A stretch of DNA of 64,000 nt from Brachybacterium epidermidis. Its GTDB lineage: Bacteria > Actinomycetota > Actinomycetes > Actinomycetales > Dermabacteraceae. The stretch spans positions 34,361 to 98,360 of the forward strand of contig NZ_JADEYR010000012.1 in the NCBI RefSeq assembly GCF_015209585.1. The letters run 5' to 3'. Each line of letters begins with the position of its first letter. Position 1 is the first letter of the stretch. Below, piece by piece: positions 32,228 to 37,101 of this stretch. The notes beneath the pieces were generated by a model. It saw only the letters and a list, made by a program, of their open reading frames with translations, was not told the DNA's origin and made no database searches. A program made the position numbers and the translations under genes.

Positions 32228-33622
32228 TCAGGCGGGCAGGGGCGGTTCGGTCGCGCCGCCGGCGGCACGGATCTCCGCCAGCAGGGCCTCCACCTCGGCG
32301 GACTCGGTGGTGAAGGGGTCCAGCAGCTGCACGGGCATCGCGCCTGGCCGGGTCAGGCGCAGCGTGGTCCAGTCCACCACGTGGTCCACACCGTTGTCCT
32401 GGGCGGCGGTGACCACCTGGCCGCGCAGGTGCGCGCGGGTGGTGGTGGGCGCCACGGTGCGGGCACGCTCGATGCGCTCCTGGGAAAGGATCGACGGTGC
32501 CAGGCCCCGTCGAGTCAGGGCGGCGAACACGCCGCGCTCGGGATCGATGTCGTGGTAGGCGAGGTCCAGCCGCTCGATCGCGGGATCGGCAAGGTCCACG
32601 CCGCGGCGCTGGGCGACCTGCTCGAACAGCCTCTCCTTGATCGCCCAGTCCAGGTGGAGGGCGGCCCAGGCACGATCCCCGGTGCGTACGGCGTCCAGCC
32701 CGCGCTGCCAGGTCTCCAGCGTGTCCTGCTCGTCCCGGTCCCCCGGCTCGGCGTGCTCGGCGGCCACGTCCAGCCATCGCTGCTGGACCTCGAGCGCGCT
32801 GGTGGTGCCGCCGTCGGCGGTGGGGATCGGAGCTCGGCCGCTCAGGTCGCGGGCGACGGCTCGGATGGCGGAGATGTCGTCGCGCAGGGTGAGATCCGGC
32901 AGGGCCCGCCCGGATTCGATGGCCCGCAGCACCAGGTCGGTGGTCGCGAAGCGCAGGTGCGTGGAGGCCTCGCTCATGGTGGAGTCGCCCACGATCACAT
33001 GCAGGCGGCGGAACCGCCCGGGATCGCCGTGGGGCTCGTCGCGGGTGTTGATGATGGGGCGGGTGCGGGTGGTGGCGGAGGAGACCGCCTCCCACATGTG
33101 GTCGCTGCGGCGGGAGAACACGAAGCGGGCCCCGTCCTCGTCCCGCACCACTCCCCCGGCACCGGTGAGGATCTGGCGGGTGACCAGGAAGGGCAGCAGG
33201 TAGCGAGGCAGACGGGTGAACTCGCCGCGCCGGTCCACCAGGTAGTTCTCGTGCGAGCCGAAGGAGTTTCCCTCGGAGTCGACGTTGTTCTTCAGCAGAT
33301 GGATGCGGGCGTCCTGCGCGTCGGCCGCCAGGCGCTCGTTGGCGTCCTGGACCAGCTCGCCGAGGATGCGCTCGCCGGCGCGGTCCTGGGCCACCAGGTC
33401 CCACCAGTCGTCGCACTCGGCGGTGGCGAACTCCGGGTGGGAGCCCACGTCGAGGTAGAGGCGGGCCGCGTTGGTGAGGAACACGTTGGAGGACCTTCCC
33501 CGGGCGACCACCGGCCGGAACAGCTCCCGTGCCGCGGCCTCGGGCTCGAGGGCGCGGGTGCCGTCGGACCGCACGCACACCAGGCCGAACTCGGTCTCGA
33601 GTCCTCCTACCCGACGCTTCAT
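32228..33622 (-). CDS. pafA: Pup--protein ligase
   Basis: A 464-residue glutamine-synthetase-like ligase that links the C-terminal glutamate of Pup to lysines of target proteins with ATP. RRVGGLETEFG contains catalytic E9, and ARLYLDVGSHPEFATAEC contains the catalytic base D58 (matching the known Asp of mycobacterial PafA). NNVDSEGNSFGSHENYL and INTRDEPH continue the active site. Length is typical. It starts 4 bases after pup. The proteasome genes prcB and prcA, usually between pup and pafA, are absent. Confidence 0.97.
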   Translation of the reverse strand: MKRRVGGLETEFGLVCVRSDGTRALEPEAAARELFRPVVARGRSSNVFLTNAARLYLDVGSHPEFATAECDDWWDLVAQDRAGERILGELVQDANERLAADAQDARIHLLKNNVDSEGNSFGSHENYLVDRRGEFTRLPRYLLPFLVTRQILTGAGGVVRDEDGARFVFSRRSDHMWEAVSSATTRTRPIINTRDEPHGDPGRFRRLHVIVGDSTMSEASTHLRFATTDLVLRAIESGRALPDLTLRDDISAIRAVARDLSGRAPIPTADGGTTSALEVQQRWLDVAAEHAEPGDRDEQDTLETWQRGLDAVRTGDRAWAALHLDWAIKERLFEQVAQRRGVDLADPAIERLDLAYHDIDPERGVFAALTRRGLAPSILSQERIERARTVAPTTTRAHLRGQVVTAAQDNGVDHVVDWTTLRLTRPGAMPVQLLDPFTTESAEVEALLAEIRAAGGATEPPLPA

Positions 33623-33626
33623 CGGG

Positions 33627-35542: not shown

Positions 35543-37101
35543 GCCTCCACCACCTCCTGCTCGGGCCGGCCCTGCAGGGGGATCACCGCATCGACCCGGC
35601 GGCCGCGCCGACCGGAGATCCGGGCCCAGTCCTCGGGGTGGGCGCCGGAGGGGAGGTCCTCGTTCTCCACGAACTCGCTGCGGATGGCGGCGGCCAAGTG
35701 CTCGGAGTCCACGCCCACCTGTCCGGTGGCCAGCTGGTCCTTCACCGCGTTCTTCTTGGCGCGGTCCACGATGTTGCGCAGCGTGGCGCCGGAGACGAAG
35801 TCGCGGAAGTGCAGAACTTCGCCGGTGCCGTCGGAGTACTCCAAGCGCACGAAGGCGGATTCCGGGCCGTCCGCGTAGATCTCACGGACCGCCTCGTCCA
35901 GCAGTCGGTCGCGCTCACCGCGCACGGGCACCGAGTCGTCCAGGTACAGCGCGAGGATCTCCCGGCCGGACTCCGCATCGGGGCGGCGCACCCGGATCTT
36001 CACGTCCAGGCGCCCGGGCCGCAGGATCGCCGGATCGATCATGTCCTCCCGGTTGGAGGCACCGATGACGATCACGTTCTCGAGGGTCTCCACGCCGTCG
36101 ATCTCCGCCAGCAGCTGCGGGACAACCGTGGTCTCCACGTCGCTGGAGAGGCCGCTGCCGCGGGTGCGGAACAGCGACTCCATCTCGTCGAAGAACACGA
36201 CCACCGGGTGGCCGCTGGTGGCCTTCTCCCGGGCCCGCTCGAACACCAGGCGGATGGAGCGCTCCGTCTCCCCGACGTACTTGTTCAGCAGCTCGGGGCC
36301 CTTCACGTTGAGGAAGAAGGAGTGCTGGAGGGCCTCCTCGACCGGGACGTCCCGCGCCTCGGCGGAGCGCACCGCGAGCTCGTGGGCCACGGCCTTGGCG
36401 ATCATGGTCTTGCCGCAGCCGGGCGGGCCGTACAGCAGCACGCCCTTGGGCGGGCGCAAGCCGTAGGTGCGGTACAGGTCCTGCTGCAGGAACGGCAGCT
36501 CGACGGCGTCGCGGATCGCTTCGATCTGCTCTGTCAGGCCGCCGATCTGCTCGAAGGAGATGTCGGGCACCTGCTCGAGCACCAGGTCGGTGATCTCGGC
36601 CCGTTCGATCCGCTCGATCACCAGCTGTGCGCGCAGGTCCACCAGCACGTGGTCACCGGGATGCAGCACCTCCTCCGCCAGGGATCCGGCACGGCGCAGC
36701 ACCCGCACGTCGTCGGGCGCCACCGCCACCAGCACGCGGGAGTCGGCCAGGGCCTCGATCACGGTGACCATGTTCCCGGCGTCGCTGGGTGGGACCACCT
36801 CGACCGCGGCGAGGGCCTCGTTCAGGCGCAGCTCGGCGCCCGGCTGAAGGGCGTCCAGGTCGATCTCGGCGCTGGTGGCGATGCGCAGGCGCCGCCCGTT
36901 GTGCAGCACGTCAACGGTGGTGCCCTCGGTGCGGCGCAGGAAGGTGGCGTAGGAGTTGGGCGGGTCGCCCACGCGCTCCAGATCTGCCTTCAGGTCCACG
37001 ATCTGGGCACGGGCCGCCCGCAGGGACGCGGTGAGCCGGTCGTTGAGGGTGGCGAACCGGTCGAGCTCCGCGGACATCTCCGCGTAGGTCTTCATGGTCA
37101 T
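35539..37101 (-). CDS. mpa: proteasome-associated ATPase Mpa/ARC without docking tail
   Basis: A 520-residue AAA ATPase that recognises Pup through its N-terminal coiled coil (about 5-45). Double OB-fold interdomains follow (about 50-170), then the AAA module with Walker A GPPGCGKT (225-232), Walker B VVVFFDEMES (300-309) and SNREDMIDPAILRPGRLD. It ends in EQEVVEA. Proteasome-bearing relatives end in a GQYL-like motif that docks into the 20S core; that tail is missing, in line with the absence of prcBA nearby. ATG 37101 is preferred to 37095 because GAGAG lies at a suitable distance. Confidence 0.95.
   Translation of the reverse strand: MTMKTYAEMSAELDRFATLNDRLTASLRAARAQIVDLKADLERVGDPPNSYATFLRRTEGTTVDVLHNGRRLRIATSAEIDLDALQPGAELRLNEALAAVEVVPPSDAGNMVTVIEALADSRVLVAVAPDDVRVLRRAGSLAEEVLHPGDHVLVDLRAQLVIERIERAEITDLVLEQVPDISFEQIGGLTEQIEAIRDAVELPFLQQDLYRTYGLRPPKGVLLYGPPGCGKTMIAKAVAHELAVRSAEARDVPVEEALQHSFFLNVKGPELLNKYVGETERSIRLVFERAREKATSGHPVVVFFDEMESLFRTRGSGLSSDVETTVVPQLLAEIDGVETLENVIVIGASNREDMIDPAILRPGRLDVKIRVRRPDAESGREILALYLDDSVPVRGERDRLLDEAVREIYADGPESAFVRLEYSDGTGEVLHFRDFVSGATLRNIVDRAKKNAVKDQLATGQVGVDSEHLAAAIRSEFVENEDLPSGAHPEDWARISGRRGRRVDAVIPLQGRPEQEVVEA

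Follow-up and report, generated by a model that had tools for sequence, protein, structure and literature searches.

The genome of Brachybacterium epidermidis encodes an intact pupylation operon but no detectable 20S proteasome, and its Mpa ATPase probably acts alone, pulling on Pup-tagged proteins that would then be released or depupylated instead of being degraded by a proteasome. The operon lies in a window of 64,000 nucleotides (the whole stretch of DNA analysed, from contig NZ_JADEYR010000012.1), where pafA, pup, dop and mpa, as an earlier sequence-only reading had proposed, are contiguous at positions 32228-37101, all four on the minus strand:

32228-33622, minus strand: pafA, Pup ligase, 464 aa (TIGR03686, 596 bits vs cut-off 551)
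33623-33626, minus strand: pup-pafA junction, 4 bases (sequence)
33627-33815, minus strand: pup, 62 aa, C-terminus QKGGQ (TIGR03687, 71 bits vs cut-off 41)
33812-35542, minus strand: dop, depupylase/deamidase, 576 aa (TIGR03688, 591 bits vs cut-off 492)
35539-37101, minus strand: mpa (ARC), proteasomal-type AAA+ ATPase, 520 aa (TIGR03689, 691 bits vs cut-off 505)
35539-35562, minus strand: 3' end of mpa, coding for EQEVVEA-stop instead of GQYL (sequence)

All four genes are complete and their products score above the NCBIfam equivalog cut-offs, with 4-base overlaps between dop and pup and between mpa and dop. PafA aligns with the solved PafA 4b0t (E 1e-119) and carries at residues 55-64 the motif LYLDVGSHPE, which includes the catalytic Asp. 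Dop aligns with 9cku_G (E 2e-144) and retains the catalytic Asp motif WYVDHAHPEY and the WDYGDESPLRDARGF stretch, so that the catalytic residues attributed earlier to both enzymes are indeed present. Pup matches the Pup chain 7px9_G of solved Mpa-Pup complexes (E 9e-11) and ends, as had been noticed, in GGQ (...FVQKGGQ). Mpa, which aligns with the solved Mpa 7ljf/7px9 (E 6e-165), contains two OB domains (Pfam OB N/C) and an AAA domain (Pfam), with the Walker A motif at 225, the Walker B motif at 303 and the pore loop NKYVG at 273. Its C-terminus reads ...PLQGRPEQEVVEA, in agreement with the claim that the tail is EQEVVEA and not of the GQYL type.

The absence of prcB and prcA, also claimed from the locus, was confirmed at the genome scale. 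A search with the PF00227 profile (proteasome fold) gave 0 matches in the whole genome (3,073,790 bases, 30 contigs, 99.88% complete), the same search matching 10 of 14 control genomes, and a codon-pattern search for GQYL- or GKYL-ended proteins, whose final codon also allowed Phe, found 0 sites in this genome. Bpa was not detected in it either. Neither prcBA elsewhere in the genome nor a docking motif was found when both were looked for, and the pupylation locus without a proteasome is a confirmed observation. A proteasome missed because of an assembly gap or too great a divergence, on which the new Mpa tail would dock, appears extremely improbable, and we consider this reading already largely refuted. 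Dermabacter- and Devriesea-type PrcBA evolve very fast, and a more divergent copy could escape the profile; however, PF00227 picks up the fast PrcBA of G038, G039, G041 and G042 above cut-off, it has no match in any of the 38 Brachybacterium genomes, several of them single-contig, and pup adjoins pafA at the usual site of prcBA. Across the family, 42 of the 47 genomes lack a PF00227 match. The coordinates bear out the 4 bases reported between pup and pafA, a spacing shared by 6 of 11 loci of the genus; four others have gaps of -11, 31, 37 and 79 bases, which are approximate as the start codon was picked by motif, and the pafA start was unplaceable in the remaining one. Proteasome-bearing family members have prcB and prcA at this junction, with 1422-1659 bases between pup and pafA (5 loci measured).

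Pairwise dN/dS is below 1 for all four genes, with values against G016 of 0.20 for pafA, 0.36 for pup, 0.21 for dop and 0.08 for mpa. The Brevibacterium values of Mpa, of PrcA and of a single PafA include wrongly extended N-termini and were discarded, and those of Dermabacter type have a dS close to saturation. It is very unlikely that the operon is a decaying remnant, functionless since the proteasome disappeared and in the process of being lost. The decay of the Mpa tail would fit such a fate, as would pup, which shows the weakest sign of selection and the highest dN/dS of the four genes (0.36 against G016, 0.79 against the more distant L137, 0.36-0.79 across three pairs) over its only 62 codons. 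Against it stand the low dN/dS of mpa, pafA and dop, the GGQ or GGE end of Pup in all 20 family loci that were read, and the presence of Mpa in 37 of 38 genomes of the genus, the exception (G026) being 88% complete; family-wide, Mpa was matched in 46 of 47 genomes.

The proposal that tagged proteins are unfolded, or otherwise handled, without a proteasome is supported, in that the claims made from the sequence hold and no prcBA or docking motif was found. Since the genome contains no detectable proteasome genes, tagged proteins likely undergo unfolding or release in place of proteasomal degradation. Dop would turn Pup-Gln into Pup-Glu, PafA would ligate Pup-Glu to lysines, and the Mpa coiled coil would bind Pup, after which the pore loop would unfold or disassemble the target with no protease below; the tagged protein would finally be released or depupylated by Dop. 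This stand-alone unfolding by Mpa is an inference. Unfolding by the mycobacterial enzyme requires an aromatic pore-loop residue, as described for the F341A mutant (PMC8142254), and Mpa here retains an aromatic residue at this place as Tyr. Mpa might alternatively pass Pup-tagged proteins to another protease, such as a Clp peptidase or one acting on released chains, so that tagging would still mean degradation. We regard this as unlikely, even though Mpa is kept and conserved, a chain that it unfolds and releases could be a protease substrate, and its variable tails could accommodate other partners. A conserved docking site would not be expected to vary between species of the genus as these tails do, and the [LIVMP]-G-[FL] tripeptide, the kind of motif used for docking on ClpP, is absent from Mpa. 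In addition, we found no such partner described in the portions of the literature available to us.

Pupylation without a proteasome is already known as a kind (PMC3511204, PMC8223512). According to these sources, Corynebacterium retains pupylation without prcBA; C. glutamicum keeps, as here, Pup, PafA, Dop and the ATPase (ARC), with prcBA gone and pup adjoining pafA, and uses the tag independently of degradation in the release of iron from ferritin. The absence of the docking tail from such ATPases was already noted in a 2012 review (PMC3511204). Four genomic features of a Corynebacterium-type system, namely intact genes, no prcA or prcB, pup directly before pafA and a tail-less ATPase, are present in B. 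epidermidis. It nevertheless belongs to another lineage, which lost the proteasome separately. C. glutamicum Pup is reported to end in Glu (PMC3511204), whereas the GGQ end found here makes deamidation by Dop necessary. The ferritin substrate (Ftn/Bfr) of C. glutamicum was not found either: the ferritin-family search (PF00210) gave a single match in the genome, a Dps-like protein that scores highest against the NCBIfam model for Dps (112.0 bits, just under the cut-off of 114). Ferritin release as a function is therefore not supported, and the role described in C. glutamicum is not directly transferable. The Pup loci of Micrococcus luteus and Kocuria rhizophila are likewise not known to contain prcBA; these species belong to another family and their loss was presumably separate. 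Both are named in published locus figure legends (PMC8223512, PMC4254994). With the mycobacterial Mpa-20S system, B. epidermidis shares homologous PafA, Pup, Dop and Mpa but, unlike it, has no PrcA/PrcB, Bpa or GQYL tail that we could find.

Mpa tails vary among species of the genus, and none of the 37 read, one of them (G022) from a run-on frame, has a penultimate Tyr. G026 is the sole Brachybacterium genome without an Mpa match and contributes no tail. In the family, four prcBA-bearing members (G042, Devriesea agamarum, and G038, G039 and G041, which share the genus code of the Dermabacter MAG G040) have an Mpa without GQYL and no Bpa; the earlier reading had not noticed that relatives with a proteasome also lack this tail. 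Only G044 (Micrococcales bacterium 31B), which branches outside the rest of the family, combines prcBA with GQYL-ended Mpa and Bpa; it is the one genome of 47 with Bpa. Helcobacillus massiliensis (G043) was also among the genomes compared. The GQYL/GKYL codon pattern was applied to 11 genomes and had 8 sites, spread over 5 of them. G044 accounts for 3 of these sites, and its Mpa and Bpa were the sole real protein ends detected; the backward control gave 22 sites. The other 6 sites ended chance reading frames 10 to 34 codons long (twice in G042, once in G144) or were not stops, and none of G038, G039, G041 and G042 has a real protein with such an end. The possibility that a frameshift conceals a GQYL-like tail was also rejected: when the three frames of the coding strand were read from 200 bases upstream to 250 bases downstream of the Mpa stop, none of the 32 loci from tail-less genomes with prcBA had an [x]Y[LIVMFA]-stop end. 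Tail-less Mpa in the prcBA-bearing relatives might still dock, since the Mpa beta-grasp domain is described as also contacting the 20S, the tail not being the sole contact (PMC9599533), and Cpa without its last five residues is reported to bind 20S still (PMC6017811).

Comparison of these relatives suggests that loss of the Mpa tail and loss of the proteasome were separate steps and, in this family, undocking probably preceded the loss of prcBA. In a quick Mpa+Dop+PafA tree without bootstrap, from which L119 (no Dop) was excluded, all 19 family rows without the tail group in a single clade (SH-aLRT 100), inside which prcBA-bearing rows are nested; the 'noprc' mark of L080 in this tree arises only because its locus stops short of prcBA. 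A PrcBA tree, equally quick and without bootstrap, does not group G044 with its family members, and its fast Dermabacter- and Devriesea-type branches may distort placement. The earliest step would have been the loss of the docking tail in an ancestor shared by five genera, while the 20S was still encoded, and the pathway therefore probably worked undocked before the proteasome vanished. Later, prcBA would have been deleted in independent events, four in number provided that it was never regained, one of them in the ancestor of Brachybacterium; with equal weighting of gains and losses, one loss and two regains (3 steps) beat four losses. We found no published account of this stepwise loss, which by implication sets a limit to the rule that loss of the Mpa tail accompanies loss of the proteasome.

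Brevibacterium offers a parallel, its Mpa lacking the Tyr-type tail as here but its Pup locus keeping prcBA. All 26 Brevibacterium-type genomes (f7) with an Mpa match in our sample of the order combine PF00227 with an Mpa without Tyr tail. Regions L215-L217 (G093, G106), which yielded no Mpa tail, do not enter the counts. Bpa was kept in 22 of the 26 and ends in GNYL in all 12 tails read, and it is missing from the GQYL/GKYL result because that pattern is blind to GNYL, GPYL and other GxYL ends. In the 24 f7 loci that were aligned, PrcBA retain the catalytic Thr1 and, in PrcA, the pocket Lys. Of the 55 closest database proteins, 54 also miss the Tyr-type tail. The exception, P0148, with an apparent GQYL end, was set aside as a chimeric metagenome protein, since its residues 1-350 best match Brevibacterium-type rows (94-100% per 50-residue block) and later blocks Kineococcus/Thalassiella-type rows (74-90%).

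It is fairly plausible, although we advance this tentatively, that docking of Mpa on the proteasome is an optional add-on shed by whole lineages that keep both machines: in Brevibacterium the 20S would be served by Bpa alone and Pup-Mpa would be a separate unfolding system, Dermabacter and Devriesea would hold an orphan 20S without a known tail-bearing activator, and Brachybacterium would be the end point. If so, non-degradative remodelling would count among the principal functions of pupylation rather than the marginal ones, which bears on the question, raised in a review of the field (PMC3511204), of whether Pup chiefly marks proteins for degradation or has a regulatory or remodelling role as well. 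The stepwise separation of tag, ATPase and 20S provides natural experiments in the proteasome-free genus, in its relatives with a 20S and no docking tail, and in Brevibacterium, in which only one of the two activators still has its tail. The published rule that Bpa accompanies the 20S (PMC8223512), to which Propionibacterium acnes has already been named as an exception (PMC4254994), also meets a limit in our sample of the order, 28 of whose 155 PF00227-positive genomes have no PF10759 match, some perhaps owing to assembly gaps. Finally, the order of tail before proteasome is not universal, since four genomes elsewhere without PF00227 keep a Tyr tail: G247 (f9) ends in GTYL, and G164, G233 and G278 (f3) in RDYL.

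A sequence-only reading had placed a complete pupylation locus without a 20S proteasome at 32228–37101 of the window, and all four genes lie where it put them; curated NCBIfam families together with solved homologues bore out their identities, each product scoring above its NCBIfam family cut-off:

35539–37101, minus strand: mpa, Pup-reading AAA+ ATPase, matching solved 7ljf and 7px9
33812–35542, minus strand: dop, matching solved 9cku and 5lrt
33627–33815, minus strand: pup, matching 7px9 chain G
32228–33622, minus strand: pafA, matching solved 4b0t and 4bjr

The catalytic residues said to be kept in Dop and PafA are present in their catalytic-Asp motifs (WYVDHAHPEY and LYLDVGSHPE, respectively), the nearest named relatives of Dop being from Brachybacterium (66–79% identity). 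Pup does end in GGQ (QKGGQ), and Mpa, in which Walker A, Walker B and the aromatic pore loop NKYVG were all found, likewise ends in EQEVVEA in place of the GQYL-type docking tail with its penultimate Tyr. Downstream of pafA lie two genes for FKBP-type peptidyl-prolyl isomerases (31179–32099 and 30745–31182, minus strand). A PAC2-family protein (PF09754, E = 7e-52) is encoded ~2 kb upstream of mpa (39170–40258, plus strand), and so retained in a genome without a proteasome; PAC2 relatives are described as 20S assembly chaperones in eukaryotes (PMC4255298).

The absence of prcA and prcB, for which the same reading had called for a whole-genome search, extends to the entire genome (3,073,790 bases, 99.88% complete), where a profile search for PF00227, positive in 10 of 14 control genomes, found no match and a pattern search found 0 sites for protein ends in GQYL or GKYL. 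PF00227 was found in 0 of 38 Brachybacterium genomes and in 5 of the 47 Dermabacteraceae; Bpa (PF10759), the other 20S activator, occurred in 1 of the 47. That pupylation can exist without prcBA is already established: according to a 2012 review, some actinobacteria, e.g. corynebacteria, have pupylation genes without 20S genes, with pup directly 5′ of pafA and ATPases lacking the C-terminal motif (PMC3511204), and a 2021 review describes a subgroup of Actinobacteria without 20S genes, secondary loss being likely (PMC8223512). The locus is thus a real, correctly described further case of a known state. Among the matches listed in the literature on Brachybacterium and proteasome or pupylation, none was a study of this locus; the genus appears in the species list of PMC4255298. 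The added value lies in the series of intermediates that surrounds it.

Outside Brachybacterium, the family set comprises nine genomes from five genera. One of them, G044, has prcBA and both Mpa and Bpa ending in GQYL. One Devriesea-type (G042) and three Dermabacter-type genomes (G038, G039, G041) retain prcBA between pup and pafA, and their Mpa end in REQV, VAAP, GETL and GGAQ; in these four we did not find Bpa, nor any GQYL/GKYL protein end by the search that detects both Mpa and Bpa in G044. G040, G043, G045 and G046 have neither prcBA nor tail. A quick IQ-TREE phylogeny was built from Dop, PafA and Mpa trimmed of its tail (63 rows, 1456 columns). In it, tail-less members form a clade of 19 rows (SH-aLRT 100) that excludes G044, and within this clade the rows that bear prcBA are nested among rows that lack it. 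This pattern could reflect a single prcBA loss and two regains, which is one step shorter if gains and losses cost the same. We prefer a history of losses only, in which one tail loss would have been followed by four prcBA losses (in Brachybacterium, G043, G040 and G045/G046), because prcBA lies in its usual place and because PrcBA of G042 and the Dermabacter type group together in their own tree, apart from the other 42 rows. In this PrcBA tree, G044 falls outside their group. The surrounding series of intermediates suggests that Pup–Mpa was uncoupled from the 20S before the latter was lost in the Brachybacterium lineage.

According to alignments, PrcB of G038, G039, G041 and G042 keeps the N-terminal Thr-Thr site and the active-site Asp and Lys. 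PrcA keeps its pocket Lys in all four, Lys52 being the residue described (PMC9599533). PrcBA branches are long (Dermabacter-type stem 3.57, G042 1.31, G079 from family f17 1.19; median end branch 0.16). Despite this, dN/dS of prcB and prcA is low between the three Dermabacter-type genomes (0.05–0.12, with dS near saturation), so that a 20S without a known tail-bearing activator appears to be still under selection. Very fast-evolving, apparently selected PrcBA without a known activator occurs at L130, L131 and L132 (Dermabacter type) and L127 (Devriesea type), the dN/dS values concerning the Dermabacter type only.

In an order-wide sample of 297 genomes, PF00227 was present in 155, Mpa (E ≤1e-100) in 266 and Bpa in 127, every one of the latter PF00227-positive. 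Across the family and order sets, Mpa tails were read in 153 genomes: the penultimate Tyr was present in 48 (45 GQYL, 3 GPYL) and absent in 32 genomes with PF00227, and present in 4 and absent in 69 without it, proportions that are not rates since 80 of 157 PF00227-bearing genomes were read (including G039 and G041), with the Brevibacterium-type family (f7) covered in full on purpose. The 32 are unevenly distributed, comprising 26 f7 genomes, the four Devriesea- and Dermabacter-type genomes and two from f17; outside f7, f17 and Dermabacteraceae, the Tyr tail was kept in 47 of 47 PF00227-bearing genomes read. All 26 sampled f7 genomes that encode Mpa have PF00227, and their Mpa lacks the penultimate Tyr (ending in SDLV, SDLL, SSLI, PDLL, SGLV, MSMF, PTPV, PTAV or VQHD). 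Bpa, found in 22 of them, ends in GNYL in 12 of 12 read, and in GQYL in 7 of 7 read outside f7. As the Q can be replaced without effect on docking (PMC6017811), the f7 20S pocket probably still expects a Tyr tail, borne by Bpa and absent from Mpa. These data suggest that Brevibacterium is still in the uncoupled Pup–Mpa/20S state. Family f17 is possibly a third uncoupled lineage; in the two genomes read, G079 (L173/L271) and G064 (L176), PF00227 is present, Bpa had no match and Mpa ends in HVEL or HLEL. Among the literature matches listed on the tail, Brevibacterium and Dermabacter, none was seen to describe an Mpa that lacks the tail in a genome with a proteasome. Of the 55 closest database Mpa (P0121–P0175; at least two, P0163 and P0164, partial or oddly ended), 54 lack a Tyr tail, and the single GQYL-ended one appears to be a chimera.

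The proteasome can also go first, since Mpa ends in GTYL in the PF00227-less G247 (family f9, L153) and in RDYL in three PF00227-less f3 genomes (genus g59; L149, L151, L152). These ends possibly reflect recent proteasome loss or a reused tail. Nor is tail loss proof of lost binding, because the Mpa beta-grasp domain contributes to 20S binding (PMC9599533) and Cpa binds 20S without its last five residues (PMC6017811). Two Mpa-like ATPases coexist in one PF00227-less genome, G175 (L175), and also in G196 and G303 (f3, genus g21).

Up to tagging, the pathway would follow the established enzymology of these protein families. Thereafter Mpa, which keeps the parts needed for unfolding without the known docking tail, would most likely unfold tagged proteins or take them apart, and Dop would recycle Pup; in other species, Mpa enhances depupylation in vitro (PMC3511204). 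Pupylation has a ferritin role in C. glutamicum (PMC8223512), which is no direct model here, since the genome yielded a single ferritin-family protein, whose best model is Dps.

Judging from Nei-Gojobori counts, the pupylation genes are kept: dN/dS against the nearest relative, G016, is 0.20 for pafA, 0.36 for pup, 0.21 for dop and 0.08 for mpa, pup reaching 0.79 against two further species (62 codons). In contrast, the Mpa tail varies between Brachybacterium species, with a penultimate Tyr in 0 of the 37 tails read (G022 being a run-on frame; G026, with no Mpa match, left out). Across 20 family loci read, Pup ends in GGQ in 17 and in GGE in 3.
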